Below are positions 965-47,712 of a stretch of 64,000 bases of DNA, piece after piece. The stretch covers positions 1 to 64,000 of the IMG/VR virus record IMGVR_UViG_3300030333_004588. One strand, given 5' to 3'. Source of the stretch: a virus. The position numbers and the translations under genes are program-made. The notes under the pieces were generated by a model. That model did no database searches and had not been told where the DNA came from. It was given only the letters and a program-made list of their open reading frames with translations. Position 1 is the stretch's first letter. Every line of letters begins with the position of its first letter.

Positions 965-1252
965 TTACACTCCTTTAAACATATCCCAAACATGTTTAAA
1001 TAATAATCCTAAAAAACCTGTTCCAATAACACCTCTCCATTTTTGAGAATCCTGTCTAAATTGTGTGTTTTGTTTTGTTTCTGCCCATAATCCCTCATGT
1101 GGATTAAATAGGTTTTCTTTGATAAACTTTAGATTTTCTTCAGTTTTGACATGTGCAGCATTCATTTCTACTTTTAAATCATCAATTGATTGTGTAATAT
1201 TATCAATTTTATTATGAATTAAGTCAAATTCTGTTCTATCTTTTTGGTTCAA
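965..1252 (-). CDS. Small coiled-coil protein with C-terminal membrane segment
   Basis: 95 residues. The N-terminal two thirds is a likely coiled coil (heptad-like IDNITQSIDDLKVEMNAA), followed by one hydrophobic stretch near the C-terminus (GVIGTGFLGLLFKHVW). This layout resembles the XhlA-type haemolysin/holin accessory proteins, which pair with a holin, but I see no specific signature. Translation most likely begins at a TTG codon at 1252 with GGAG seven bases upstream; no ATG fits better. A lysis-related or membrane-anchoring role is a guess. Confidence 0.55.
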   Translation of the reverse strand: MNQKDRTEFDLIHNKIDNITQSIDDLKVEMNAAHVKTEENLKFIKENLFNPHEGLWAETKQNTQFRQDSQKWRGVIGTGFLGLLFKHVWDMFKGV

Positions 1253-1304
1253 GGTAATTCTCCATAGTTTGTATTCTATTATAAATATCTAACTTCTAAA
1301 AAAC

Positions 1305-2069
1305 TTATATGGAAAACAACTCATTAAAAAAATTATTTTTTCTACTGATTTTTGTAATTCTCTTTGTGATAAATCTATTTTTATTATTGTGTTCAATGTA
1401 GTTAAAAACTTCCATAGATTTGTTCATACATTCAATGTATTTTTCAGTAAGTATGTTGTCCATAAAATCTATCTTTTTAAATCTATCATCATCTCTTAAT
1501 ATAATTTTTAATGATTTTACTTCTTCCATGTGACTTATTACATCCCCATAACTACTTTTCCAATCAATACCCTCAATTTGTTTTGACAACAACCATTCTA
1601 CATAATAACTCCAATGTCGTTTTAGATTAACAAAATGAACTTTATTCAAATCTTTAAATTCACTAACTTGTTTTATCCTTGTATGTAAATCTATAACTGA
1701 ATGGTTATGAAAAAGAACTTTATCTTTTTCTTTTGTATAGACATCGTATAACCTATCAACTAAATCTGGTCTATTCGCAATCATATTATCATGCCATACA
1801 TGACCCTCAAAATATCCTCTCAAATCTTGGACTTGACCAGATAAAAATCTTTCCATTGGATTTCTATATATAAATACTTTTAAATAATCTTCATATTTTT
1901 CATAATCAATCTCATGTCCATAAAATTCACCTGACTTATGTCCACATGAAAAATGTTCATAATTAACATTTTTTAAATAAATGTTTCTAATGTGACTTGA
2001 ACCAAGTTTGGCACCAGTATATATCATTATTTTACTTTTAGGTATTGTAAATACTGATGCCATACTCAT
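1305..2069 (-). CDS. Sulfotransferase-family protein
   Basis: 254 residues. An N-terminal strand-loop-helix (residues 15-31, IMIYTGAKLGSS) sits where sulfotransferases bind the 5'-phosphosulfate of PAPS. Residues 67-77 (IYRNPMERFLS) match the 3'-phosphate loop of carbohydrate sulfotransferases (R-[DN]-P-x-x-R-x-x-S). The C-terminus is basic. Such enzymes transfer sulfate from PAPS to sugars, and the APS kinase at 53.7-54.1 kb in this phage could supply PAPS. The start codon overlaps the stop of the preceding small gene as TAATG. The acceptor is unknown. A related but different sulfotransferase-like gene lies at 25051-25482. Confidence 0.7.
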   Translation of the reverse strand: MSMASVFTIPKSKIMIYTGAKLGSSHIRNIYLKNVNYEHFSCGHKSGEFYGHEIDYEKYEDYLKVFIYRNPMERFLSGQVQDLRGYFEGHVWHDNMIANRPDLVDRLYDVYTKEKDKVLFHNHSVIDLHTRIKQVSEFKDLNKVHFVNLKRHWSYYVEWLLSKQIEGIDWKSSYGDVISHMEEVKSLKIILRDDDRFKKIDFMDNILTEKYIECMNKSMEVFNYIEHNNKNRFITKRITKISRKNNFFNELFSI

Positions 2070-2320
2070 TATTTTTTATAACTTTTCTTATAAGGTCTTC
2101 TTTTTCTTGGTTGTGGTTTACTTTTTTTAGTAACTCTAAATATCTCTTGTTTTAGTGCATTTCTTTGTGCCAGTAACTCTTCTACTCTATTATCTAATTC
2201 AATAACTTGGTCTCTTTGTCTACTATCTTTATTAATATTAACAAACCCTAATACTAATACTCCTAAACAACTACCAATCAATAATCCACATCCAAATGCA
2301 ATCCATGCCGATTCAATCAT
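2069..2320 (-). CDS. Small membrane-anchored protein with basic tail
   Basis: 83 residues: an N-terminal membrane helix (residues 5-27), a short coiled-coil-like part (RDQVIELDNRVEELLAQRN) and a strongly basic tail rich in Lys and Arg. A clear AGGAG lies seven bases before the ATG. The one-helix plus coiled-coil layout is also seen in phage Rz-like spanins, but no lipoprotein partner overlaps it, so I do not assign a role. Confidence 0.5.
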   Translation of the reverse strand: MIESAWIAFGCGLLIGSCLGVLVLGFVNINKDSRQRDQVIELDNRVEELLAQRNALKQEIFRVTKKSKPQPRKRRPYKKSYKK

Positions 2321-2321
2321 T

Positions 2322-2543
2322 TTATTCTCCTATTATTACTACTCCTGTATTACCATCCCATGATGGTTCTACATTAAATTTTTGTTTTGAACATTCCTCT
2401 TTCACAATGTTCTTCATTTTTTCACTATTACCTGTGATAACTTTAATTGGAAAATTACCCATATTATATTGTAATATAACCCAATTTATTAATTTATCTT
2501 TTACTTCTTCGTGTTTCCAATTATGTAAATCAATTTCTACCAT
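2322..2543 (-). CDS. Smr-domain protein
   Basis: 73 residues forming one small Smr (small MutS-related) domain: DLHNWKHEEVKDKL near the start corresponds to the DLHG motif and first helix, ITGNSEK in the middle to the glycine-rich TGxG loop, and VVIIGE is the last strand. Smr domains bind nucleic acids and often nick or cleave them. The final Gly of the DLHG motif is Asn here, so catalytic activity is uncertain. Packed between two small genes with almost no spacer. Confidence 0.65.
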   Translation of the reverse strand: MVEIDLHNWKHEEVKDKLINWVILQYNMGNFPIKVITGNSEKMKNIVKEECSKQKFNVEPSWDGNTGVVIIGE

Positions 2544-2549
2544 CTTTTA

Positions 2550-2852
2550 TCATTTTGGTGGCCCTACTCGTCTTTTTCTCTCAAACAACGACATTTCATC
2601 ATCAACTATTGCCTTTTCTTCTTTCCACCAATCGTATCCTTGTGATTGTGATGATGGTTTTCTTGTAGTTGCCTCATATATTCTATCATATTCTGTTCTT
2701 GTCATAACTTTCCATAAATTACTAAAAACTTCTCTATCAGGCATCTGTTTTACACCTTGAAAATAAGTTGTTGCACCACCAATACCAACATCACTTGCAA
2801 GGTTTGCAGAAAACACAATTTCATCTTGTTTATTAACTAATACATATTCCAC
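2550..2852 (-). CDS. Hypothetical protein, GTG start
   Basis: 100 residues, not recognised. No membrane segment or Cys cluster. The C-terminal third is charged (WWKEEKAIVDDEMSLFERKRR). The reading frame opens with GTG at 2852, eight bases after GGAG, and no ATG fits better. It sits in a run of small accessory genes. Confidence 0.5.
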   Translation of the reverse strand: MEYVLVNKQDEIVFSANLASDVGIGGATTYFQGVKQMPDREVFSNLWKVMTRTEYDRIYEATTRKPSSQSQGYDWWKEEKAIVDDEMSLFERKRRVGPPK

Positions 2853-2862
2853 ATTATTACTC

Positions 2863-3447
2863 CTAATTTAATATTATTCCGAATGTCCTATCTTTATATT
2901 CTCCATACCAATCAGTAAAGGACACATTTACATGAACGGTATCTCCAACCATAGTTTTTACTGGCCCAAATATCGTATTTACTTCACCATATGTTTCGGG
3001 TTGTGTTGATGGGTATGATGAACCATTTACGGTTGGAACTTCAAATCCACTAAAATGTGTTACATAAGTTGTATCATAAGAGACATATTCTAAATCATCT
3101 GTTACTCCTCGTTTAACTATGTAACCAAGTGTATCACCAATTGTCCAATAGTGTGTAGAACGCCATCTTACTGGTAACCATTCCATGTCATCTCTTTCCC
3201 ACCAATCATAATCTTTACCCTCACTTGTGATATGTGCAGTCAATCGTTTTATTGATTGCCACTTATTCATATCAAGAGACATATGATAATAACCATTTTC
3301 ATCTTGTGGTAACTCTACACTCAATTCAATATTGAAGTCAGGATAATCATATTTTGTATCCTCACATCCAATAAATAATAATAAACTAATTCCTATTAGG
3401 ATGTTTTTTATTGAACTTCGTGTTTTGTTTTTTATTAATTTCATCAT
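2863..3447 (-). CDS. Putative lipoprotein
   Basis: 194 residues with a basic N-terminus, a hydrophobic helix and a lipobox ending FIGC at about residues 25-28, so signal peptidase II would leave a lipidated Cys followed by EDT. The mature part is acidic and rich in aromatics and Thr (YDYPDFNIELSVELP), suggesting a beta-rich periplasmic or outer-membrane-attached domain. Phage lipoproteins often act in superinfection exclusion, but no family is evident here. Its N-terminal codons overlap the end of a small gene at 3386-3547 in another frame, with AGGAAG upstream of the Met-Met start. A host-derived gene is possible. Confidence 0.6.
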   Translation of the reverse strand: MMKLIKNKTRSSIKNILIGISLLLFIGCEDTKYDYPDFNIELSVELPQDENGYYHMSLDMNKWQSIKRLTAHITSEGKDYDWWERDDMEWLPVRWRSTHYWTIGDTLGYIVKRGVTDDLEYVSYDTTYVTHFSGFEVPTVNGSSYPSTQPETYGEVNTIFGPVKTMVGDTVHVNVSFTDWYGEYKDRTFGIILN

Positions 3448-3547
3448 AACTTTTTTTCTTCCTTTTTGGTTTTATTTTTGGTTGTATTCTTTTACGGAAA
3501 GTCTCTTCTTCCAGTTCTTCCCATTCTTCCCAATCATATTTCGGCAT
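3386..3547 (-). CDS. Small highly charged protein
   Basis: A 53-residue ORF beginning MPKYDWEEWEELEEE: an acidic Trp/Glu-rich first third, then a Lys/Arg-rich remainder (KIKPKRKKKSYDE). It has a good ribosome-binding site (TAGGAG, eight bases before the ATG) and lies right behind the promoter at 3561-3590, which is why I accept it despite its length. Its last 62 bases overlap the start of the lipoprotein gene in a different frame, suggesting translational coupling. Function unknown. Confidence 0.55.
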   Translation of the reverse strand: MPKYDWEEWEELEEETFRKRIQPKIKPKRKKKSYDEINKKQNTKFNKKHPNRN

Positions 3548-3560
3548 CTATATTACTCCT

Positions 3561-3590
3561 AATATACTAATTTTTTATTGTTAATGTCAA
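3561..3590 (-). promoter_or_regulatory. Sigma-70-type promoter
   Basis: On the minus strand TTGACA (3590-3585), an 18-base spacer and TATATT (3566-3561), with an A-tract (AAAAAAGTG) just upstream of the -35. The same arrangement precedes the gene at 23568-23951. It would drive the small charged ORF, the lipoprotein and the genes beyond. Confidence 0.65.
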
Positions 3591-3598
3591 GCACTTTT

Positions 3599-3865
3599 TT
3601 AATTTCTTTTACCACACATGGTTCTTATTTTTAATTTCTCAATAACATCAAGAAATTCCTCAACACTATATACTTTTCCTTTCTCATCAAGAATAGTATA
3701 ATTCTCTATTGATTCAGGACTTATATTCATCATGTTATTCAGTGCAACCCAACCTTGTTCAGGATAGAATTTACCCAAACTTTCTTCTCCCAATATATTA
3801 CTACTGAACATTAGGTTTTCTTTTGATTCATTTTTATGTATTATAAAGTATGTCATGAATATCAT
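3599..3865 (-). CDS. Hypothetical protein
   Basis: 88 residues, not recognised. It starts inside the end of the SGNH hydrolase gene (32-base overlap) without a good ribosome-binding site, so translation is probably coupled; a second in-frame ATG lies three codons in. The sequence is mixed alpha/beta, ends with two Cys-flanked basic residues and has no membrane segment. Confidence 0.45.
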   Translation of the reverse strand: MIFMTYFIIHKNESKENLMFSSNILGEESLGKFYPEQGWVALNNMMNISPESIENYTILDEKGKVYSVEEFLDVIEKLKIRTMCGKRN

Positions 3866-4520
3866 TTGCTACTATTTCGTAACCCTTTGTTGATGGATGT
3901 GCTCTTCCTTTGATAAATTTCTCTTCATTCTTTCTACTTTGTATATCCAATCCTCTTTCAAATAATGTAGGTTCTTTCTTATCTAATAACATATTTGTAA
4001 TAGAACTATTTGTATATAAATAGTTTTTCTCATCAACAAAATCAGGTTTTTTATAACTCTCTACCGTATTTACAAACAAATAACCTTTAACATTTGGTGT
4101 ATTATCAAGTAAGTGTTTTACCTTTAACATCCAACATTTATATATTGTATTAAAATACTCCTCATCATAACAATAAATTAAATAGTCTTTCCATAATTCA
4201 TTATTTTTTGTATCTGTAAGATTAGGATGGTCATACTTATCCTCTCTTAATATATTTCTTCCCCATGAAGATGCAAAATCTAAAAATGGTAAGTTTTCCC
4301 TTAAAAAAGAAGTAACACCTACAACACAAAAACTCTCATCAACAAATGGATATTGTTCTATACTTGATAATATTTCTGTATTATTTGAACCATTATAACC
4401 ATGATTAGTTGTATTCCAATTTTTTTCTTTTAAAAAGTAATCAATGTTCATTTTTCTATCATTATCGTAATCTGCACATGACCCATAAATAAAACTATCA
4501 CCAAACAAATCAATTATCAT
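3834..4520 (-). CDS. SGNH/GDSL-type hydrolase
   Basis: 228 residues. Block I is LFGDSF at residues 5-10, with the nucleophilic Ser at 9. Block V is RAHPSTKGYEIVA near the C-terminus, with the catalytic His followed by Pro-Ser; the usual Asp three residues before the His is not obvious here. A YNGSNN segment near residue 43 could be block II/III (oxyanion Gly/Asn). Such enzymes remove or transfer acyl groups, commonly from sugars. Next to a glycosyltransferase, glycan O-deacetylation is plausible. GAGGAG lies ten bases before the ATG. Confidence 0.7.
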   Translation of the reverse strand: MIIDLFGDSFIYGSCADYDNDRKMNIDYFLKEKNWNTTNHGYNGSNNTEILSSIEQYPFVDESFCVVGVTSFLRENLPFLDFASSWGRNILREDKYDHPNLTDTKNNELWKDYLIYCYDEEYFNTIYKCWMLKVKHLLDNTPNVKGYLFVNTVESYKKPDFVDEKNYLYTNSSITNMLLDKKEPTLFERGLDIQSRKNEEKFIKGRAHPSTKGYEIVANDIHDILYNT

Positions 4521-25482: not shown

Positions 25483-26024
25483 TCCATTTCCTTACATTGA
25501 AAACATTCACCACAAATTTCTTCCTCTCTACACCACCAAACTTCCTCTTGTATTCCACTTCCTAATAAATTCCAACACTTTTCTTTAGTAAACTTTTTCA
25601 ATGGTGTTGTTAATTTTATTTTATGTTTTGTATAAACATCGTTCTCATTACATGCATCAACCATTTGATATAATGTTTTTAAATTTGTTGGTGAATCTTC
25701 AGTATCATTATCTGATTTTGTAAACCCTACTGATACTTCATCATACTCTTCTTGATATGCAATTCTCATACCATCAACCAAACATATAAACACATCACCA
25801 AGAACACTTGCATATTGAGTAGATGTAGTGAACTCAAATGGTTTTATTTTTTGTAATATTGGTTCTATATTTTTAACGGCATTCAATTGTTTATTAACCA
25901 TACCACCTCTGTTTAACAATTTAACATGGTGTGCATGAACTTCACAATTTGTTTGTTCTAAATGAAACTTTAAAAGTGCAGTTGAATCAACTCCACCACT
26001 CCATAATATCAAAACTTTTACCAA
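25470..26024 (-). CDS. queC: 7-cyano-7-deazaguanine synthase (QueC)
   Basis: 184 residues. LWSGGVDSTALL (residues 7-18) is the PP-loop that binds ATP, and WWCREEEICGECFQC near the C-terminus carries the Zn-binding Cys set (C-x6-CGxC-x2-C). QueC converts 7-carboxy-7-deazaguanine to preQ0, used for queuosine or, in some phages, 7-deazaguanine in DNA. No QueD, QueE, FolE or DpdA homologue is evident in this window. Start is a TTG with GAGG seven bases upstream, overlapping the preceding stop. Confidence 0.8.
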   Translation of the reverse strand: MVKVLILWSGGVDSTALLKFHLEQTNCEVHAHHVKLLNRGGMVNKQLNAVKNIEPILQKIKPFEFTTSTQYASVLGDVFICLVDGMRIAYQEEYDEVSVGFTKSDNDTEDSPTNLKTLYQMVDACNENDVYTKHKIKLTTPLKKFTKEKCWNLLGSGIQEEVWWCREEEICGECFQCKEMECLK

Positions 26025-26545
26025 TTTAAATCCTCACCCATTGTCCATGATAATAATGTAATTCGTTTACCCTTTACTACAGGAGTAACTCTATGATATA
26101 AAAATATTGGAAACACTAATGCAACTCCAACTTCTTGTTTTACTTTAAAAACTTCACCTTGAAAAAATTCAAGTTCTCCACCCTCACAATCTAAACTTAA
26201 TGGTATTGTAACTCCCAATCTACGATTATCATTTAACACATCAGTATGCCAATCAAAACCATCATTAACATTATACTCTTTTATAGAGATATAGTCTACT
26301 AAACCCTTATATTGTGTATTGAAGTATTTTTCATTAATGATTGATAAATAGGTTTCCATCCTTTCTCTCACCCATGTATCATTATTTAAAATCTTTGCTG
26401 GATAATTTCCGTAATTCTTTGAATATTTTTTCTTTTGTTCAATTGCCTCTTTACTATCCTCAGTAATTAATTTGGATGGTAATTCTAATATCTTTTCACA
26501 CTCTTCTTTTGAAAATATCTTTTGTGTAATAACTAAATCTTTCAT
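26018..26545 (-). CDS. 2-oxoglutarate/Fe(II) oxygenase (copy 4 of an array)
   Basis: 175 residues, ATG at 26545 as TAATG with the previous stop. GFDWHTDVL near residue 97 gives the metal-binding HxD, YHRVTPVVKGKR near 155 the distal His and the Arg that binds 2-oxoglutarate. GGELEFFQGE fits the beta-barrel core of prolyl-4-hydroxylase-like enzymes. Four such genes lie head to tail here. Targets could be protein, nucleotide or small molecule. Confidence 0.85.
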   Translation of the reverse strand: MKDLVITQKIFSKEECEKILELPSKLITEDSKEAIEQKKKYSKNYGNYPAKILNNDTWVRERMETYLSIINEKYFNTQYKGLVDYISIKEYNVNDGFDWHTDVLNDNRRLGVTIPLSLDCEGGELEFFQGEVFKVKQEVGVALVFPIFLYHRVTPVVKGKRITLLSWTMGEDLNW

Positions 26546-27111
26546 TATACAAAACAATCTCCCTCTATTGTAAACATTACTACAAATCTATCTGCCCCAC
26601 TATATTTTAATGGACGATGTGCTGCAAATGATGGATACATAACTAATCTTCCAGTTTTTGGTTCAACTTTTCCTTTTAAAATTTCAAGTTCACCACCATC
26701 AAAATCATCATTCAAAAATACTATACCAGTTATCTTATGTGTTGTCCCATTTATACCAGTTTCATCTTCACCATTAGCAAAATCTGAATGTAATGTATAA
26801 TCACCACCATGTTCTCCATCAGGATAATATAAACCAGTTGAGTTTGTAATGTCCTCAATATCAAATTTCCAATATAAATTATTTGCAATTTTAAAATTTA
26901 CATAGGCCCTATCAACTAACCATTGATAATCAGTTTCTTCACCTTTATTATATAAAATTGATTTCCATTGTATACCCTCAGGAATATAACCATAATTTTT
27001 ACAAGTAGATTTAATGTGTTTTTTTAAATTATCACATTCTTCTTGTGATAAAAAATTATCTTTAATTACACTCCATTTAAAATCCCTATTTTCTTTAGGC
27101 AAAATGGTCAC
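26545..27111 (-). CDS. 2-oxoglutarate/Fe(II) oxygenase (copy 3)
   Basis: 188 residues. YTLHSDFAN near residue 106 is the HxD, SFAAHRPLKYSGADR near 165 the second His and Arg, and DDFDGGELEIL the core. Opens with GTG at 27111, with weak initiation context, and overlaps copy 2 by 17 bases. A WSVIKDNFLSQEECDNL start aligns with the opening of copies 1 and 2 (FKxNFLSxxECDxL pattern), so the copies are related by duplication or joint recruitment. Confidence 0.85.
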   Translation of the reverse strand: MTILPKENRDFKWSVIKDNFLSQEECDNLKKHIKSTCKNYGYIPEGIQWKSILYNKGEETDYQWLVDRAYVNFKIANNLYWKFDIEDITNSTGLYYPDGEHGGDYTLHSDFANGEDETGINGTTHKITGIVFLNDDFDGGELEILKGKVEPKTGRLVMYPSFAAHRPLKYSGADRFVVMFTIEGDCFV

Positions 27112-27730
27112 CTATAAACAATTCTTGTAACACATATCGTTTACCCTTTGTTACAGGTTTTACTCTATGTGATGTGAATGCAGGGAAGAATGTTATTGAA
27201 CCTTTTTTCTTTTCCATCTCATACCATTTTTTATCTTCATCTTGAAATCCAAACTGAACTTCTCCACCCTCATATTCACTTGGGTCTGTTAATTGAACTA
27301 TTGCAACTAATTTTCTTAAAGAACATATACCTGGATTAAAATCTGCATGCCATGTGTAATGTCCACCCTTATCATACTCAATCATTTTTAGTTCACCATC
27401 AGTATCTTTAATATCAAAATGAAATACACCATCATTAACAACTCTCATCATCATTTCTATTTTTTTAGATAACCATGTCCAATTACCATTTGGATAATCT
27501 GGTCTAAACTTATTTTCTAATTGTGGTAATAAATAATATTCTTTTGTGGTTCTAACCTCTGGCATTATTTGATTCTCTAATGGTTTACCATCTTCATCTT
27601 CTGAACCAACACAACCTATTACATTTGTTTCTTGTGATTTAATTTGTTCTACAAGTTCATCACACTTTTCGTCTGTTAAAAAGTTTGGTATCTGTATTGA
27701 CCATTTAAAATCGTTATTTTGTTTATACAA
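27095..27730 (-). CDS. 2-oxoglutarate/Fe(II) oxygenase (copy 2)
   Basis: 211 residues. GGHYTWHADFNPGICSLRKLVAIVQL (in parts, near 121-146) has the HxD and the hallmark strand; FPAFTSHRVKPVTKGKR near 183 has the distal His and the Arg. Starts at TTG with GGAG six bases ahead. Closest in wording to copy 1 (GGTYNWHTDYGRHECSMRKL), which suggests these two are the most recent duplicates. Confidence 0.85.
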   Translation of the reverse strand: MYKQNNDFKWSIQIPNFLTDEKCDELVEQIKSQETNVIGCVGSEDEDGKPLENQIMPEVRTTKEYYLLPQLENKFRPDYPNGNWTWLSKKIEMMMRVVNDGVFHFDIKDTDGELKMIEYDKGGHYTWHADFNPGICSLRKLVAIVQLTDPSEYEGGEVQFGFQDEDKKWYEMEKKKGSITFFPAFTSHRVKPVTKGKRYVLQELFIGDHFA

Positions 27731-28295
27731 AAGTATCTCCTTCCATCCAGGTAATTATTGAATATCTTGTTCCTTTAGTTATTGGTGTAACTCTATGTGA
27801 TAAGAAAGATGGAAATACTAATAAACAACCTTTACCTCTATTTCCCTTTACTAAATCATCACCCTTAGCATCTGTTATACCAAATTCAAAATCACCACCC
27901 TCATAATCTTTATCATCACTCAACTGAATGATTGCAGTAAGTTTTCTCATAGAACACTCATGTCTTCCATAATCTGTATGCCAATTGTAAGTTCCACCTA
28001 TTCCATACTTTAAGAACCTAAGTGTATCTATACTTTCTATATCATATCTAAAGTAATTTATATTTGCAACTTTAATTGCTGAATTTATTTTATTGAATAG
28101 GTTTTTATCAAGGAAATCAACATTGAGTGTTTGTCTGACATTATTATTGATATTTTTTTTACCACTATAATCTCCTACTACCTCACCCTCTGTTAATTCA
28201 TCAGTATCAAGAGATTGAATTAATTTATCACATTCTATATCACTTAAAAAATTCTCTTTGAATACTACAAACTGAAACCTATCATTTTTTTTCAT
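27723..28295 (-). CDS. 2-oxoglutarate/Fe(II) oxygenase (copy 1)
   Basis: 190 residues. YNWHTDYG near residue 107 gives the HxD pair, FPSFLSHRVTPITKGTR near 163 the distal His and Arg, and YEGGDFEFGI the core strand. The first of four adjacent oxygenase genes, just behind a Hint-domain gene. The family hydroxylates proline, other side chains or bases, using O2, Fe(II) and 2-oxoglutarate. Which target each copy uses cannot be read. Confidence 0.85.
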   Translation of the reverse strand: MKKNDRFQFVVFKENFLSDIECDKLIQSLDTDELTEGEVVGDYSGKKNINNNVRQTLNVDFLDKNLFNKINSAIKVANINYFRYDIESIDTLRFLKYGIGGTYNWHTDYGRHECSMRKLTAIIQLSDDKDYEGGDFEFGITDAKGDDLVKGNRGKGCLLVFPSFLSHRVTPITKGTRYSIITWMEGDTFV

Positions 28296-33427: not shown

Positions 33428-33868
33428 TCAAAAAAATCTTTCTATTTTTACAGGGTCACCAAACATTTCTTTTAAAAATTCTTGAAACTTATCTTCAGGA
33501 TAATTAGACCTACCAAGATTCATAAACCTTGTAGTGATTACAAAATTACCCTTGACATAACCACCCTTTGGGTCAGGCCATCTGTCAACTGATGGTGCTT
33601 TAATTGAATGTGGAACAAATATTTCATTCAAATCTATTTGATAATGAGGCATCCAATAATCACAACCCTTTTGTTTTTTAAATTGTTCCTCTAAGTCATC
33701 TCTTGTTATACCAACTTCAAGTTGTTTTTTGTATCTGTAAATCCTACCCTCTTTACTAACTGCCAACTCTCTTTTTAATTTTGAATTTAAATTTCCTCTT
33801 GTACTTCCTTGATTCTGTGATGACATATTTACATTTGACATCATTTTTTTAAATGGGTCTTTTGCCAT
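33428..33868 (-). CDS. HNH-like protein with C-terminal clamp-binding motif
   Basis: 146 residues. GCDYWMPHYQIDL, then SVDRWPDPKGGYVKGNFVIT near residue 92, resembles the S-x-DR-(x)-GY-x-x-GN block of HNH/endonuclease VII-type proteins, though the first His and Cys pairs are not convincing. It ends VKIERFF, the same closing residues as the polymerase (SIERFF) and a PIP-like peptide that could bind the clamp encoded next. The gene is joined to the polymerase stop by TAATG. Confidence 0.5.
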   Translation of the reverse strand: MAKDPFKKMMSNVNMSSQNQGSTRGNLNSKLKRELAVSKEGRIYRYKKQLEVGITRDDLEEQFKKQKGCDYWMPHYQIDLNEIFVPHSIKAPSVDRWPDPKGGYVKGNFVITTRFMNLGRSNYPEDKFQEFLKEMFGDPVKIERFF

Positions 33869-36369
33869 TAGAAAAACCTCTCTATACTTTTTGTATTATC
33901 TACAACCTTTTCCCATTTCATTGCTTTATAAAACATACCAATCTTTTTACTCATTGCCTGTTCAAACATTCTTTCATGGTCAATATGTGTTTTAATTAAA
34001 TCTAAAATCTGTGGTGGGTCTTCGTAACCTTTATAACCTATAGTATCAAAACCAAACTCGTTATTCTTTAAATACACCCATTTAATCTTACTACCATTTG
34101 TAATCTTTTCATATTTCCTACCCTCATACCAATATTCTAAAAGTGAATTATAATTAATTGCAGATTTTACATGAACTGGTGTTCCCTTTTTATATCCACT
34201 AAATGCAGAGTCTTCTATTTTTACTTCATACTTACCAATACCCTTTACACCGATTGGATTTGCCATAACATCATAGTGAAGTGAATTCATGTTCCTTTTA
34301 AAAATACTAATTCTTTCATCAATTTTATCCTTTGGAACATCTGCCAAAATATCATCCAACACATTTTGTAATAACTCTTTCATTGCAACTGCAAAGTTAC
34401 TACGAACCGTATCCAATCCCTTTACATGTATTTTATTTACCTTACGACCTGCATCATTAATGATTCGTAACCCATATCTTTTCTTTGTAATAAATAATCC
34501 ACTCTTGGCAATCACCTCTTGTTTAATATCAAATACATGTTCATCAAGATTAAGAAACTTCTTTGCAAAATAATTATAACTTTGATTTAGATAATCTTGA
34601 ACCTCACCACATACTTCCAATATTCGTTGAGTCATCATTGCCTCAGATAATTTATCTTTCGGAAATCTTTTCTTTATCAATGGAATTGCAGAGGCGAAGA
34701 TTGAATCTGTATCAATGTATATAACATAATCATCGTTATCTCCAAGTTCTTTGTTATAAAAATGATTCGTTATCTTCTTACTGAACTTAATTAAGGCTTG
34801 ACCGGTAAGAGTCGTCGCCTCTGCGTTATCCAAGTCATAAAATCTAAATACTGATAGTCCTAACACACCATATAATGAATTTAAAATAATTTTCTGTATA
34901 TATTGTCGTCTGTCAAAGTAATCCTCTAATTCCTTGTCACCCTCTTCGTGATATTTCTTCACGAGTTTTCTCATCTCTACTCTTTCATTAAACCACTTAG
35001 TTAAAAGTGCAGGTATTAATCCTTGTTTATCTGTTCTATACATCACACCATTAGATGCAATACTAATTTTATTTGTTATTAAATAATTTTCTAATTCACC
35101 ATTTGTAAATTTACCAACTTCTTTTCCTTTATTATTATTCATCGTATATGTTTTTGTTAACCCTTTTTTCAAAAACTCTTCTGCATCCCAACCTTCAACT
35201 TTACCAAGTTTAGTTTCAGGACTAATATTCAATGAACGAATAACACTTGGATACATAGATGTGATATCTAAATCATAAACCCAATCGTGTTTACCTGCCT
35301 GTGGTGATTGAACATATGCACCTGCAAACTTATCATCAAGAAATTTCTTTGGTCTTGGTGGTTTATTTGGTGCAACAATACCAAGTTTTTTTAGATAAAC
35401 TAATATCGCACCCTCAAGATATCTTGAACTCATAAATACTTCCTCATAAGGAATATGTCCAAGATGTGCAATACCACGAGATATTTCTATTAGATTAAGT
35501 TTTTTATCTAATTCAACTAATATTTTTACATCTCGGATATTATAGTCAATAAATGTTTGTAAATCATTTTCATATAAATCATTAAGTGTTCCCTCATATG
35601 AAACCTTTTTCATACCAACTTCAACTTCACCAATGTAATCCAATCTATAACTTGATTGTTGGGAAAATGAAAACTTTCTATATAATGATAAGTAATCTAA
35701 ACAACTAACACCTGCAATTACATATCTCTTTTTAAATTCATTATAAAAGACTTGAGAGATAGGTGATAATAAATTTGCAACACTAACACCTAATACATTA
35801 ACTGCTCTATTATAAAGATATGGTATATCAAAATAGTCTGAATTCCAACCACTTAATATAGTTGGTTTTATTTCTAAATACTTTTGGAAGAACTTGTTCA
35901 ACATTTCATATTCAGTATCATATACCTCTACGATTTTATTATCTTTAGTATATGATTGAAGTCTCTTCTTTGCATCAAACACATATGTATAATATTTCTC
36001 TGTTAAAAAATCATAAAGTGCTATGGAAGTTATAACATTATTTGCCTTCATCACATCAGGAAAACCATCTGTAACCTCTACCTCTATATCAAAAAATATT
36101 TTTCTATGTCCCTCTGATACTTCATCTGAATCTGTATATTGGTCAACTAAAAATCTTGTTGTTGGTGGGACATCACTTTCGTGAAGTGTTGGGTCTTCCT
36201 TATCATAATTAAATACTTTCTTTACTCTATCACCATATAGTGAAACATGTTGACCACTTGAATTTTTTACATAGGCATACTTTTTATATGGGATAATTAA
36301 ATATCCTTTTTTATCATCCCAAAGATGAACTTTTTGTTTACGATTATCAAAATATATATTTTGGTACAT
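33868..36369 (-). CDS. gp43: Family B DNA polymerase (T4 gp43-like)
   Basis: 833 residues. FFDIEVEV (residues 92-99) is Exo I of the 3'-5' proofreading domain, YNIRDVKILVELD Exo III, DITSMYPSVIRSL (near 370) motif A, KIILNSLYGVLGL (near 490) motif B, and YIDTDSIFAS (near 550) motif C. The C-terminus ends SIERFF, a clamp-binding-type tail. The main replicative polymerase of the phage. It follows the terminator and promoter at 36402-36472, so it opens a new unit with the HNH-like gene, clamp and loader. Confidence 0.97.
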   Translation of the reverse strand: MYQNIYFDNRKQKVHLWDDKKGYLIIPYKKYAYVKNSSGQHVSLYGDRVKKVFNYDKEDPTLHESDVPPTTRFLVDQYTDSDEVSEGHRKIFFDIEVEVTDGFPDVMKANNVITSIALYDFLTEKYYTYVFDAKKRLQSYTKDNKIVEVYDTEYEMLNKFFQKYLEIKPTILSGWNSDYFDIPYLYNRAVNVLGVSVANLLSPISQVFYNEFKKRYVIAGVSCLDYLSLYRKFSFSQQSSYRLDYIGEVEVGMKKVSYEGTLNDLYENDLQTFIDYNIRDVKILVELDKKLNLIEISRGIAHLGHIPYEEVFMSSRYLEGAILVYLKKLGIVAPNKPPRPKKFLDDKFAGAYVQSPQAGKHDWVYDLDITSMYPSVIRSLNISPETKLGKVEGWDAEEFLKKGLTKTYTMNNNKGKEVGKFTNGELENYLITNKISIASNGVMYRTDKQGLIPALLTKWFNERVEMRKLVKKYHEEGDKELEDYFDRRQYIQKIILNSLYGVLGLSVFRFYDLDNAEATTLTGQALIKFSKKITNHFYNKELGDNDDYVIYIDTDSIFASAIPLIKKRFPKDKLSEAMMTQRILEVCGEVQDYLNQSYNYFAKKFLNLDEHVFDIKQEVIAKSGLFITKKRYGLRIINDAGRKVNKIHVKGLDTVRSNFAVAMKELLQNVLDDILADVPKDKIDERISIFKRNMNSLHYDVMANPIGVKGIGKYEVKIEDSAFSGYKKGTPVHVKSAINYNSLLEYWYEGRKYEKITNGSKIKWVYLKNNEFGFDTIGYKGYEDPPQILDLIKTHIDHERMFEQAMSKKIGMFYKAMKWEKVVDNTKSIERFF

Positions 36370-36401: not shown

Positions 36402-36431
36402 AATTTAATAATAAAACCATATACTTGTCAA
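36402..36431 (-). promoter_or_regulatory. Sigma-70-type promoter for the polymerase operon
   Basis: TTGACA at 36431-36426 on the minus strand follows an A-tract and GC (AAAAAAAAAGC), as at 24001-24014. Eighteen bases on is TAAATT, a weaker -10. It lies between the hairpin after the TonB receptor gene and the polymerase start. Confidence 0.55.
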
Positions 36432-36481: not shown

Positions 36482-39217
36482 TTAGAAATTAATAGTCAAT
36501 CCAATATTTGCATATCGTGGTGTTCCTAAGAATACCTCTGCATTGTGAGCCAAGTGAAGTTTATCACCAAACCCATTGTATTTACTATTATCTACGGCAT
36601 CTTGTACGAATACTTCATCAAGTGCATTGAAGACATGTCCTGTTAAAGAAATGTCATATCCCTTGATTGGAAGTTTATATGATGCGTGTAAATCAAGTTT
36701 TGAGTAACCTGGGGCTTCCCAAACTTGTGCTCTGTCTGCAACTCCATCCTCAATCTCTCTTGCTGCTGGACTCCAATCAGAGTAGTTTTTATCATATGTT
36801 TTATACAACGCCTGTAATCTCAATCCTTTTACTGGTTTAAGAGTTAAACCTAAGATATAAGATGTTTGTGGCATATCACCTACATACAATCCATCAAGTG
36901 CATATCCATATTCGGTTGAAGTTTGTCCAATTACTTGTCCATCTTCATTATATTCCATTTCTTGGTAAGTACCATTGGCATCACCATCAAATGTCCATTT
37001 ACCAAATGATGCGATAAAATCAAGTTCTACCATATCGTGTGGATGAACTTTTGTTTCAAGTTCTACACCTGAGTGTTTTTGGTTTACACCTTTTAGGAAG
37101 ATAATATCAGTATCACCTGATGAACCTTGACCAGTCTCTACTGATTTAGTCAAGTTTCTATCTAACCAATCTGTGTTATATGCACTAACCCTAACACCAA
37201 GTTTATGTGCTTCGTAGTTTAAACCAACTTCATTTGCAATGAATTTTTCATTTGCAGGGTCGGTTGCTACGGTTCCATCATAGTAGATAACATTATCTAA
37301 TATAGGTGCCTTTTGGACATATCCACTATTAACGAATACTCCAAGATTATCACTTACATCATATAATGCACCACCTTTAACTTGATATGTTTGTATTGGG
37401 TCTGCAGTAATTACTTCATCCTCAATTGTAAAGTGGTCTTGATAAGAATACTGAATAGATGAAACTCCACCCATACCATATAGGTTTAATTTATCTGTAG
37501 TATAATTACCTTGTATGAAACCACCTAACCAATCTACGGTTGTTTCATTGTGATATGCAATGATATCACCTAAACGAACAACTTTACCATCAGGTGCGTT
37601 ATCATCGGCGAAATCTACATAGTAGTCTCCACCAAGTAAATCACGAACCTCACGAGCATGTTCAATTCCTGCTGTTCTCCAGTCTAAACCAACTTGTAGT
37701 TCTAAATTGTCATTTACATCATAGTTTAATTTAGAAATCAAACCATATGTGTTTTGACGATTAATAGAATTACGAAGTATACCTTTTGAACGAGCTTCAG
37801 TTTCAGAAAAATCAGCATCTATGTTATTAGAATTAACACTAATCGCTTCATTCCAATTCCATCCCCATGGTGAACTAGCCCACCAATTGTTTCCTTCAAC
37901 TGCTGGACTTCTGAAAGAAGAACCATAAGTTCCTGTTCCACCACCTGAACCACCACTCCAATAAAGAACTGAACTCAAACGAGTTTTATCATTTATTGTT
38001 AAAAAGTGATTTAAATTAACAAGTGGTTTATGAAAGAAGTTTTCTCTTTCGTTAAGGAAGTTAGGATTGTATCTATCGGTTGTTCTTGCACCATACATAT
38101 ACCAATATTGTTTACCTGTATATGATGGGTCAACAGGACCCCAGTTCTGATTGAAAAATCTACCAGCTTCATGTTCAAACTTATTACCCTCTGCGAAGGC
38201 ATCTGTATCGTATCCATCAATACTACCTGCCAACTCTTGAGAATAAGTTGCAATGTTCTGTTTGTATAGATTTTGTCCATGTCTTTGTGGAGCTCCGATG
38301 GCATATAATTCAAATCGTTGGTCTTCACTTACTGCATAACTACCACCAAAGTAGTATGCCCAAGCATCAGTCCAAGTTCCATCTATAATCCCATCACCAG
38401 TTTTACGAACAATCGTTCCACTCAAAGCCAACTTATCTCCAATGAGACCAGTATTATAGTTTAAGGTTGTTTTAAGAAAACCACCATCACCAGCTTCTTG
38501 TTTGAACTTTCCACCCTTTTCAAAAGATGTAGGGTCGGTTATGATATTCATGGTTCCACCAATTGATGGTGTGGCAAGATTTACAGCACTTAGTCCTCTT
38601 TGAACCTGTATAGATGCAGTTGCATCTCCTACTCCATCCCAATTAGACCAGTATACCCAACCATTTTCCATGTCGTTTTGTGGAACACCATTTATCATTA
38701 CTGCAACATTTCGTTGATTAAAACCACGAATGTTGATACGAGCATCACCCGCACCACCACCTTGTTGAGTTGCATATACACTTGGTGTAGTGTTAAGAAT
38801 CATTGGAATATCTTGTGAACCAAGTCTTACTTCCATTTCTTCTTTACTAACATTAGTGTAAGCAACGGGTGTAGTCTCAGATGCACGAGATGCTAACACC
38901 TCAACATCTGATAGAACAACTGCACCGACCTCTAATACAAAGTCAAGATTTGTTGTTCCTGTATCACCAATAACAACTGATTTAGTTATTGATGAATAGC
39001 CAATAAAAGAAGCAGTTACATCATATGTTCCTGTTGGAACTTCGTTGATTGTAAAAGCACCATCTGGATTAGTGGTTGCTCCTAAATCTGTTCCAACAAG
39101 GACAACATTTGCCCCTTCAAGTGGCATTGAGTTAGTACCCCATACGGTTCCTACTACATTTTGTGAAAACAATGTAGTAATCATCATAAGTGATACCATT
39201 AGATTACGATATTTCAT
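36482..39217 (-). CDS. TonB-dependent outer-membrane receptor
   Basis: 911 residues from the ATG at 39217, six bases after GGAG; a Met two codons earlier overlaps the site. Order: signal peptide (to about residue 20), a carboxypeptidase-regulatory-like beta domain (GTVWGTNSMPLEGANVVLVG, PDGAFTINEVPTGTYDV), a plug domain (IPMILNTTPSVYAT, INIRGFNQRNVAVMINGVPQN, GGTMNIIT) and a 22-strand-type barrel ending in a terminal Phe (YANIGLTINF). This order is typical of FCB-group bacteria. Such receptors import siderophores, cobalamin or glycans and serve as phage receptors; on a phage genome it is unexpected. G+C is visibly higher than in neighbours. It directly follows a B12-dependent reductase. Confidence 0.93.
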   Translation of the reverse strand: MKYRNLMVSLMMITTLFSQNVVGTVWGTNSMPLEGANVVLVGTDLGATTNPDGAFTINEVPTGTYDVTASFIGYSSITKSVVIGDTGTTNLDFVLEVGAVVLSDVEVLASRASETTPVAYTNVSKEEMEVRLGSQDIPMILNTTPSVYATQQGGGAGDARINIRGFNQRNVAVMINGVPQNDMENGWVYWSNWDGVGDATASIQVQRGLSAVNLATPSIGGTMNIITDPTSFEKGGKFKQEAGDGGFLKTTLNYNTGLIGDKLALSGTIVRKTGDGIIDGTWTDAWAYYFGGSYAVSEDQRFELYAIGAPQRHGQNLYKQNIATYSQELAGSIDGYDTDAFAEGNKFEHEAGRFFNQNWGPVDPSYTGKQYWYMYGARTTDRYNPNFLNERENFFHKPLVNLNHFLTINDKTRLSSVLYWSGGSGGGTGTYGSSFRSPAVEGNNWWASSPWGWNWNEAISVNSNNIDADFSETEARSKGILRNSINRQNTYGLISKLNYDVNDNLELQVGLDWRTAGIEHAREVRDLLGGDYYVDFADDNAPDGKVVRLGDIIAYHNETTVDWLGGFIQGNYTTDKLNLYGMGGVSSIQYSYQDHFTIEDEVITADPIQTYQVKGGALYDVSDNLGVFVNSGYVQKAPILDNVIYYDGTVATDPANEKFIANEVGLNYEAHKLGVRVSAYNTDWLDRNLTKSVETGQGSSGDTDIIFLKGVNQKHSGVELETKVHPHDMVELDFIASFGKWTFDGDANGTYQEMEYNEDGQVIGQTSTEYGYALDGLYVGDMPQTSYILGLTLKPVKGLRLQALYKTYDKNYSDWSPAAREIEDGVADRAQVWEAPGYSKLDLHASYKLPIKGYDISLTGHVFNALDEVFVQDAVDNSKYNGFGDKLHLAHNAEVFLGTPRYANIGLTINF

Positions 39218-39241
39218 AATCATCTCCTTGTTTGTTTACTT

Positions 39242-39281
39242 GTGAACGGCACATTTTTATTCTGGTGTGCCTTCTGCCAGG
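39242..39281 (-). promoter_or_regulatory. Hairpin in the leader of the TonB receptor gene
   Basis: The 75-base gap between reductase and receptor holds GGCACA/TGTGCC, a 6-bp stem with a 12-base loop, about 30 bases before the receptor start. It has no U-tract, so it is more likely a leader structure or processing site than a terminator. I looked for a cobalamin-riboswitch B12 box here and did not see one. Confidence 0.35.
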
Positions 39282-39292
39282 GTATGTGAAAT

Positions 39293-41305
39293 TTAATTTG
39301 CATACTCTTGGTCGTCATTATCTCCTGTCAAACTCGGTACCTCACAAGAGTCATTATTACAAAATTTATCTATCTCTGCCTCTTCATTTTTAATAACACC
39401 AAAAGATAATTTACCAAGTTTTTTGATTTGTTTCTTATAAACTTTTTCATCAATAGATTCATATGGCATTTGTGGATATGCTCCCCAATCATGTCTTGGT
39501 AGTAAACTGATACCTTTCAAATGATATTGGAAATAATTCAATACATTTGGTATTTCATGTCCCTCTTTCTCTGGGTCAAATGTTACTGTACAACTTACTT
39601 GGTTATCTGCCCAATGTCTTTGTAGGAAAGATGCTATACTAAATTGTTCCCATATAGAAAGTTCAGATGCAGTTCTAATTCCCTCACCAACATCAACTGG
39701 TATCTCAACCACTAATGTTGAATCTTCTGAACCGAAGGCAGGTTCAATTTTGTAACCTGCCTTCTTCAATGGTTCTACTAAATCGGAATTAATTGATAGT
39801 CTAATTCTTCTAATATAAAATCTTGATTCTGGATAGTGTAGTCCTGGTGTTGCCCCCGCTAACAATGATACGGTTCCACTTGGTTTTACTGATGTAGTCT
39901 TGATTGACTTTGGAATAGCAAACCAATCACTATATACTTTATCCCAATCTTGTATTGTGTCATAACCTGCTTCTAACCAATTTTGTAATTCATTTAATCC
40001 ACGATTTGTAATGAATTGTGCAACTCCACTTACAGAACATCCTATTCTTCTGTTTCTTAACATCACTCTATTAGTATCTGCCCAATGTGTTCTTCCAAGT
40101 GTTACGGTTTTTGCATATAAATATGCATATTTTAATGTTCTTTGATAGTCCTCTAATGAATCATGATTATCTGGAAATGTTTCTACTAAACAACATAATT
40201 CATAACTTTCTAATGTTTGTTCCAAACAAGGATTACCACCAGCCGCTCTATGGTCTTTATCATCTCCACCATTCTTCATTCTTGAATAATGTCTCATATT
40301 ATCTAACCATGCTAATCCTGGTTCACCATTGTCTACAATTCTCTTTGATACTTCTGTATAATCCATACCTAACTCTGCAAATATTGAATTGTTTGAAGTC
40401 CAACCATATTGGTCTCTATGTGGATTAACTTTATAATTCTTTAAATCTAAATATTCTTCTGAATCTGAATCACCAAATACAATCTCTGCAGTTCTTCTAA
40501 CATTACCTGCCACAACACACTTACCGATTAAATTCATAATATCTACGATGGTTGTGATTGTGATTGGATTACCACTATTCTTCTCTAATACTTTTCTAAT
40601 ATCTTCGTGAACTTCTTCTAATGGTTCTGGTCCTGAAGATAATCCACCAAAACCTTTGATTGGTTCTCCTGCACCTCTTATTTCTGAATAATCAAAGTTT
40701 ACTTCTGCCTGACCATGAAAATAACTTTCTAATAATAATCTCATGGATTCAACCCAACCCTCACGAGTGTCTGGTATTACAAACATAGTTCCTCGTGTTT
40801 TATCAACACCTTTAACTATAATTTCTCCTGCTCCTTTGGTATCAAATCCTACACCAACACCTAACATTGAGGCATCCATTAAAAAACAAAAAGGTTTTGA
40901 ATAATCTTCTTTAATTGTTTCTGTAGAAACGAATGCACAATTATTTAATGCAGCATACAATCCTTTTTCTTCGGTGATTGGTGTTCCCATAGCCCACAAA
41001 CCACGACCTGGTGGTAAGAACTTCATATTGAAAATTCTATCATACATATCTTGTGCTGACTTTTGTGCTTGCCAAGGATTCCAACCTAACTGATGTGATT
41101 CAATCCAATTCATTTGCATTGAGTAGGTTCCCTCTACAACTCTCTGAACGGTTTCCCACCATCTTTCGTTTTTACCATTGTCTTTAATACGAGAATATGT
41201 TCTCATATAAACTAATTCACCTAACCCATTAAAACCGAAAGGTGGTTTCTTTCTTTTGTATTTTGAAACAAAATTATCTGATAACTTGAACTTGTGTTTT
41301 CCCAT
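39293..41305 (-). CDS. nrdJ: Adenosylcobalamin-dependent ribonucleotide reductase (class II)
   Basis: 670 residues. FLPPGRGLWAMG and ALNNCAFVST (near 108) supply the substrate-site Cys, GGNPCLEQTLESYELC near 360 has the radical Cys (NPCxE), and TTSVKPSGTVSLLAGATPG near 470 the phosphate loop. A C-terminal CNNDSC could be the swinging reductant pair. This is the monomeric class II type of ribonucleoside-triphosphate reductase, which needs B12 instead of a di-iron subunit and works with or without O2. AGGAG sits ten bases ahead of the ATG. It supplies dNTPs for replication. Confidence 0.92.
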   Translation of the reverse strand: MGKHKFKLSDNFVSKYKRKKPPFGFNGLGELVYMRTYSRIKDNGKNERWWETVQRVVEGTYSMQMNWIESHQLGWNPWQAQKSAQDMYDRIFNMKFLPPGRGLWAMGTPITEEKGLYAALNNCAFVSTETIKEDYSKPFCFLMDASMLGVGVGFDTKGAGEIIVKGVDKTRGTMFVIPDTREGWVESMRLLLESYFHGQAEVNFDYSEIRGAGEPIKGFGGLSSGPEPLEEVHEDIRKVLEKNSGNPITITTIVDIMNLIGKCVVAGNVRRTAEIVFGDSDSEEYLDLKNYKVNPHRDQYGWTSNNSIFAELGMDYTEVSKRIVDNGEPGLAWLDNMRHYSRMKNGGDDKDHRAAGGNPCLEQTLESYELCCLVETFPDNHDSLEDYQRTLKYAYLYAKTVTLGRTHWADTNRVMLRNRRIGCSVSGVAQFITNRGLNELQNWLEAGYDTIQDWDKVYSDWFAIPKSIKTTSVKPSGTVSLLAGATPGLHYPESRFYIRRIRLSINSDLVEPLKKAGYKIEPAFGSEDSTLVVEIPVDVGEGIRTASELSIWEQFSIASFLQRHWADNQVSCTVTFDPEKEGHEIPNVLNYFQYHLKGISLLPRHDWGAYPQMPYESIDEKVYKKQIKKLGKLSFGVIKNEEAEIDKFCNNDSCEVPSLTGDNDDQEYAN

Positions 41306-47260: not shown

Positions 47261-47712
47261 AAATCTATGAAATTTTTTGGGAATGTGGGATTAACGATTA
47301 CCCACAACTTAAAGCTTGGATTTTTTCTACCTTGAACCTAACACCCATCAGTTACGATGATTCTCCTCAGGATGGTTAATCCCATTGAAGTGGTTACAAC
47401 ACCTGTGTCATTACTTTATCTCTCCAAGTTTAGATTGATTCAGTCATAAAGTGGGATTTCAGTATTACCCTTACCCACAACAAGGTCAATAGAATCGTTT
47501 CTATTGTTTTTTCTTCAAGTACATTAGATGATTGATGTCTCAACTACTCCACCATTCGGCCTTGTAGGTTCACCACGAACTCATCTTGGATTACCTTATG
47601 GGCTTCTAAAGGATACCCATTATTCGGTCAATTCCATACAGAGTTAATTACTCTCTGTACTTTCCAAAATTTCAAATTGTCAAAAAACTAATTTACTTAA
47701 GACCAATTAAGT
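47189..47712 (-). ncRNA. Candidate large structured RNA (~520 nt) upstream of gp32
   Basis: The 705 bases between 47075 and 47779 hold no plausible gene, against a background of almost no spacers elsewhere. The minus strand runs from TATAAATA (47726-47719), through a locally G+C-richer body, to the terminator at 47189-47260. Hairpins I can verify: TACAGAG/CTCTGTA (47637-47659), an 8-bp CAATAGAA/TTCTATTG with four-base loop (47487-47506), and two related elements GTGGG...CCCAC, each followed by ACAAC on the plus strand (47285-47308, 47451-47481). Size and phage setting recall the ROOL and GOLLD RNAs, but I cannot match it to either. tRNA, tmRNA and RNase P features were not found. Nothing else is seen in 47075-47188 apart from gp32's leader and ribosome-binding site. 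Confidence 0.65.

Follow-up and report, generated by a model that had tools for sequence, protein, structure and literature searches.

A TonB-dependent receptor with a conserved leader pseudoknot in marine T4-like phages, apparently captured from Marinimicrobia

The auxiliary genes of marine phages mostly encode cytoplasmic enzymes. Phage genes annotated as TonB-dependent receptors (TBDTs) have been described in Mar_Mega_1 and LR745206 (PMC9723777) and in Polarivirus skadi, where the gene lies among virion genes and is taken as a clue to adsorption (PMC10504331). In the accessible sections of these papers they stand as single cases, and neither family-wide conservation nor an RNA element is described there (PMC9723777, PMC10504331). 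Our search of the literature on phage-encoded B12 or TonB uptake, with most subscription journals and preprints outside it, likewise returned isolated cases only.

Among cellular proteins, the receptor described here is most like a housekeeping TBDT of Marinimicrobia (Fidelibacterota), which has the same architecture, shares 58-73% identity with it and is often encoded beside an SRAP-like gene (L084, L087, L089, L099, L102); the phage clade branches inside this group, but the Marinimicrobia copies have no pseudoknot and no ribonucleotide reductase neighbor, and their GC3 is mostly higher than that of the phage gene. BtuB (E. coli BtuB, and Bacteroides BtuB1-3 with BtuG) resembles the phage receptor in overall TBDT fold (Z 32-35). 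However, the two are only 15% identical, the phage receptor has no cobalamin riboswitch, and the B12 receptor of the likely host belongs to a separate family. SusC/RagA proteins (TIGR04056) have an N-terminal CarboxypepD_reg domain and plug region in common with the phage receptor, but its score of 54.3 bits against a cut-off of 368.25 rules out membership, and no SusD partner was seen in the phage or bacterial neighborhoods examined. The preQ1-I and SAM-II classes of riboswitch resemble the phage leader RNA in having two interlocked short helices and an A-rich loop within a 5' leader; the phage element differs in loop layout and has no Rfam match even at E ≤ 10.

The locus lies in a window of 64,000 nucleotides, the stretch analyzed here, taken from a 74,113-base IMG/VR contig (IMGVR_UViG_3300030333_004588). 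The phage carries a T4-like replication module (UvsX, clamp, clamp loader, PolB and DnaB), and in our own reading of the open reading frames tail sheath and baseplate genes occupy the last 10 kb of the record. On the minus strand the gene order is reductase (RNR), a 69-nt gap, receptor and PolB (Table 1), which places the receptor between reductase and polymerase genes as the first-pass annotation had stated. We read the receptor, with a probability of roughly 0.6, as a phage-resident TonB-dependent nutrient importer that was captured from Marinimicrobia and is under dedicated RNA control.

Table 1. Features of the receptor locus (positions in the window)
Feature	Positions	Strand	Basis
Family B DNA polymerase PolB, flanking replication gene	33868..36369	-	Domain matches
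Sigma-70-like promoter of PolB	36402..36431	-	Consensus scan; similar box in L319 and L325
Terminator-like hairpin directly 3' of the receptor stop codon	36450..36473	-	Consensus scan only
TonB-dependent receptor (TBDT), whole ORF, 913 aa	36482..39223	-	Pfam, alignment, model
22-strand barrel, about aa 233-913, Phe at end	36485..38527	-	Predicted model, strands read by eye
Plug domain, about aa 121-232, near-invariant NGVPQNDMENGWVYWSNWDG	38528..38863	-	Pfam PF07715
TonB-box-like stretch LSDVEVLASRA, about aa 104-114	38882..38914	-	Alignment, by eye
CarboxypepD_reg-like N-terminal domain, about aa 22-100	38924..39160	-	Pfam PF13715/PF13620
Receptor signal peptide, aa 1-21	39161..39223	-	Inferred from sequence; N-terminal pattern conserved in alignment
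H-type pseudoknot in receptor 5' leader: P1 CTGG/CCAG, P2 GGCACA/TGTGCC, A-rich third loop	39248..39284	-	Covariation, pattern scans
Class II monomeric RTPR-type adenosylcobalamin-dependent ribonucleotide reductase (RNR), 670 aa	39293..41305	-	TIGR02505, 1L1L alignment

The first-pass annotation had also described a full-length receptor with signal peptide, regulatory-like domain, plug and a barrel ending in Phe, and Pfam, alignment and a structural model bear this out. The CarboxypepD_reg-like and Plug domains match at 6e-17 and 1e-14, respectively. The AlphaFold2 model built from 84 homologues (mean pLDDT 86, pTM 0.81), which supersedes an earlier one built from 23 close homologues (pLDDT 51), places the plug inside a C-terminal barrel whose 22 strands, read by eye from the strand list, are complete. 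In the alignment of phage receptors the terminal Phe is invariant and a hydrophobic N-terminal leader, the putative signal peptide, is present, while the TonB-box-like EVLASRA, a motif assigned by eye, does not vary across 23 phage receptors. The receptor is a full-length, genuine TBDT under strong selection (median dN/dS 0.16 over the whole gene). The structure comparison that had been proposed confirmed the TBDT fold, with Z above 30 against many TBDTs; it gave BtuB, FoxA, FhuA and others as near ties, and SusC membership is contradicted by the TIGR04056 score. The only clear viral fold match is an uncultured marine phage protein annotated as SusC and 13% identical.

A scan of 2.9 million viral contigs in IMG/VR yielded 325 stretches encoding relatives of the receptor, the best 80 of which are full length and 72-86% identical to it, and in these relatives phage replication genes surround the receptor. 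The pairing of reductase and receptor, which the first-pass annotation had suggested looking for in other phage contigs, proved to be widespread. Since many loci overlap the same contigs, we counted distinct RNR 3' ends once each, and only counts called distinct are deduplicated in this way. Among the 102 distinct ends with enough downstream sequence, the receptor lies no more than 700 nt from RNR in 90 and lies behind an inserted gene or other insert in four; it is absent downstream in eight, although these viral sequences are metagenomic fragments, in which the absence of a gene proves little. RNR and receptor remain 72-92% identical across relatives even where PolB falls to 26-60%. A chimeric assembly, the artifact against which the first-pass annotation had warned, is excluded by the recurrence of the RNR-receptor-PolB junctions in dozens of independent contigs.

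Departures from this arrangement occur. In L315, L319 and L320 a tRNA-Ala(TGC) stands between RNR and PolB in place of the receptor and its pseudoknot, and in L236 (10031-10240) and L244 (7880-8090) the pseudoknot is followed by a receptor remnant of 27 codons, in what by its sequence is a visible loss of the receptor. Some lineages have thus lost the gene, which is evidently dispensable at times. In a second phage lineage (L055, L060, L063, L076, L496) the receptor sits beside Hsp20-like genes and not beside RNR, and the 216-kb member of this lineage nevertheless encodes a class II RNR elsewhere. Other neighbors were noted in passing. At 9-14 kb in L060 and L063 we recognized by eye queC/queD/queE/folE-like genes of the 7-deazaguanine pathway together with Hsp20, and in some relatives glutamine synthetase, thymidylate synthase, dUTPase and DAHP-synthase-family genes adjoin the receptor (L191 10018-11019; L036 7061-8053; L053 12893-13762; L074 10325-10834; L461 3003-3704).

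The closest cellular relatives of the receptor are from Marinimicrobia, one at 73% identity and most at 58-67%; proteins of Calditrichia, Ignavibacteria and Bacteroidota come next, at less than about 55%. A phylogeny built from 148 receptors places 66 phage sequences together with a single bacterial one, the Marinimicrobia gene L083, in one clade (support 100) nested within Marinimicrobia. Forcing L083 out of the phage clade is rejected (p-AU 0.02, in a quick tree and for a group named post hoc), which implies at least one exchange back to bacteria or a second one from bacteria. The L083 contig, from a Marinimicrobia metagenome-assembled genome, carries two tandem TBDT genes (986-4265), the first of which nests in the phage clade and is a possible case of phage-to-host transfer.

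The first-pass annotation had observed that the receptor gene is richer in G+C and had taken this as a sign of recent transfer from a host. The enrichment is real (36-38% against about 30%), and derivation from a host is supported by the position of the clade inside Marinimicrobia; it is the recent date that fails. The receptor has a GC3 of 0.202, level with the phage genes PolB, RNR and DnaB (0.195-0.198). This puts the excess at codon positions 1 and 2, where it is a matter of amino acid composition, and GC3 together with a phylogeny of one old clade rules out recent transfer as its source. Matching GC3 and a dN/dS of about 0.16 argue instead for an old functional capture. By these comparisons the receptor is an old resident under purifying selection, captured from Marinimicrobia (SAR406), and the receptor gene, taken alone, points to Marinimicrobia as the phage host.

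Between RNR and the receptor lies a 37-nt element, 5'-CTGGCAGAAGGCACACCAGAATAAAAATGTGCC-3', in which helices P1 and P2 interlock. Among 84 distinct copies, P2 occurs as GACACA/TGTGTC, GACGCA/TGCGTC, GGCACA/TGTGCC, AGCACA/TGTGCT and AACACA/TGTGTT and P1 as CAGG/CCTG, CTGG/CCAG and TAGG/CCTA, and 96.6% of the alignment cells are paired. Double changes number 64 against 13 expected, a count reached in none of 500 shuffles, and the covariation score is 0.240 against 0.110 for shuffled alignments and at most 0.077 for slid controls; because the aligned phages are related, the shuffle numbers are not probabilities, but the slid controls and the compensatory pair types agree with them. The CAG of the first loop and the A runs of the third are near-invariant beyond what pairing needs. 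We also considered an upstream TTTCACATACC box as an alternative partner for P2 and rejected it, since by eye it does not track the changes in P2 and it is absent from 71 of 163 elements.

The element is tied to the receptor gene. The window contains a single strong match to it (E 4e-14). When the 2.9 million viral contigs were scanned twice by pattern, without coding sequence and with hits counted per contig, the receptor lay downstream in 73 of 73 listed hits with room for it and in 67 of 72, respectively, the other five of the second scan being truncated receptor starts; over both scans, and among the matches listed, the pseudoknot precedes a receptor or its truncated remains in all 145 informative cases. 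It stays with the receptor where RNR is not the neighbor (L055, L060, L076). It was not found in 80 bacterial loci, nor in 18 Marinimicrobia genomes, where only some of the candidates were scored and the search lacked a positive control. At the pseudoknot site Rfam gives no match at the gathering threshold and, in local searches at E ≤ 10, only chance hits. The pseudoknot matches no known RNA family in Rfam and is a new small RNA element; what is new here is a conserved, covarying leader pseudoknot that is seen, among the matches listed, only before the receptor or its remains. Elsewhere in the window, an ssb-like phage gene (46310-47074) is preceded by a manA RNA (47280-47479, minus strand; Rfam RF01745, 60.9 bits), which is a cis-regulatory element already known from marine sequences.

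The 3' end of the pseudoknot is separated from the Shine-Dalgarno sequence by a median of 17 nt and from the ATG by 29 nt, so direct occlusion of the ribosome-binding site is unlikely; the element may instead affect how ribosomes load or how stable the message is, whether or not a ligand takes part. It could well be, at somewhat short of even odds, a site of message processing or protein binding whose only role is to set how much receptor is made relative to RNR, through protection from RNase, for example, or as the target of a gp32-like protein or another translational repressor of the phage. T4 gp32 binds an H-type pseudoknot in its own leader, which is a precedent for such a site, and the position of the element before rather than on the Shine-Dalgarno sequence, between two co-oriented genes, fits it too; yet the pseudoknot accompanies the receptor in lineages that have a gene other than RNR upstream, is not found before the phage ssb gene, and has near-invariant loops of the kind seen in ligand pockets. 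As in riboswitches, a conserved and structured leader RNA with covariation stands upstream of one functional class of gene. We suggest tentatively that it might represent a phage-specific, previously undescribed class of pseudoknot riboswitch that senses the imported nutrient, or a metabolite signaling its lack, and sets transporter synthesis, giving regulated import in SAR406 cells.

The class of the reductase is of consequence, since marine phage RNRs had earlier been misannotated as class II (PMC6370689). The enzyme scores 359.6 bits against TIGR02505 (RTPR; cut-off 340.05) and aligns along most of its length with the Lactobacillus RTPR (1L1L), with NNC, NPCxE and the second Cys kept, so that the active-site cysteines are aligned. 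The statement that the reductase needs cobalamin holds, and the enzyme is a class II monomeric RNR. A phage class II RNR in L293 (3945-6977) contains an intein with an HNH endonuclease.

From this the first-pass annotation had gone on to propose that the phage brings its own cobalamin uptake, the receptor importing cobalamin during infection to feed the adenosylcobalamin-dependent RNR. The idea is kept alive by the strength of the RNR link, that is, by the 90 of 102 adjacent ends, by the joint conservation of RNR and receptor while PolB diverges, and by the 216-kb phage, in which the two genes are not neighbors and both are present; shared timing or simple synteny could also explain it, and phages with class II RNR and no receptor exist. 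E. coli BtuB does head the structural list, but as a near tie, with FoxA and FhuA within about 1 Z of it. Profile searches with the phage receptor matched FoxA, PfeA and 9gbc and no BtuB.

The Marinimicrobia genomes bear on this question directly. Exactly one cobalamin riboswitch is present in 15 of 20 of them. In nearly all of 15 such sites read downstream, a gene for a TBDT-like protein of about 665-720 aa comes next; L175 has no such gene, and L177 is uncertain and more distant. For one such riboswitch-linked TBDT, L171, the few solved relatives include Bacteroides BtuB3, BtuB2 and BtuB1, and another, L170, aligns only weakly with the phage receptor (31.6 bits), so the B12 receptor of the presumed host appears to be a different protein. 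In L163-L176 the riboswitch and BtuB-like TBDT are often followed by a gene for a secreted, putatively BtuG-like protein. With a riboswitch profile built from 14 Marinimicrobia sites, all 14 of which it recovers, none of 70 regions (>300 nt) upstream of bacterial homologues of the phage receptor had a cobalamin riboswitch; the phage window holds none, and the receptor leader matches none. The receptor thus has neither the riboswitch or B12 gene context of BtuB-type proteins nor a sequence relation to the solved ones. Class II RNR is present in 16 of 18 Marinimicrobia, which implies that the hosts already import or make B12. Taken together, these comparisons argue against vitamin B12 as the cargo, and we consider self-supply of the vitamin unlikely.

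Selection acts unevenly along the receptor. The plug is most constrained (entropy 0.21, dN/dS 0.08), the N-terminal domain evolves fastest (1.49 and 0.35), and extracellular loops vary no more than strands do (0.65 vs 0.67). We favor an active transporter over a decoy because the protein has a TonB box, a signal peptide, a terminal Phe and a plug that hardly varies, and because its loops show no excess variation; with the place among replication genes, this suggests nutrient import during infection. That the receptor instead serves superinfection exclusion, as a variant TBDT that floods the membrane and is useless to rival phages or competes for TonB and export, is quite improbable, since constraint strongest in plug and TonB box with unremarkable loops is a signature of transport and not of escape and the gene sits among replication genes, even though TBDTs are common phage receptors, the host TBDT from which this one derives is conserved, and the lipoprotein Llp of T5 blocks FhuA, the receptor that T5 itself uses (8a60, among the fold matches).

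Under the importer reading, an ancestor of these marine T4-like phages, infecting a Marinimicrobia (SAR406) host, would have captured the housekeeping TBDT gene of that host, which then became fixed among the genes for replication and nucleotide metabolism, in most cases with class II RNR on one side and PolB on the other. In infected cells the receptor would be expressed, exported and folded into the outer membrane by host machinery and energized by host TonB, and it would raise the uptake of whatever substrate the host orthologue imports, while the leader pseudoknot probably sets receptor synthesis or message stability separately from RNR. That substrate is probably not cobalamin. No homologue with a known substrate was found, the nearest solved chain by sequence (9gbc) covering the first 250 residues only. 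Structure was rejected as a guide, with BtuB, FoxA, FhuA and PqqU all near the top of the comparison, as were operon partners in the host, where the receptor genes look monocistronic.

If the reading is true, the presence in hundreds of viral contigs of a conserved nutrient receptor for the outer membrane, together with a regulatory RNA of its own, would mean that phages remodel the uptake of infected cells from seawater. The receptor gene can also serve as a marker for phages that infect Marinimicrobia, one of the major ocean phyla without cultures, and the pseudoknot is directly testable in vitro. As to the rest of the window, by eye four successive open reading frames at 26018-28295 resemble 2-oxoglutarate/Fe(II) oxygenases, and positions 1-24000 hold many glycosyltransferase-like and sugar-nucleotide genes and radical SAM proteins.
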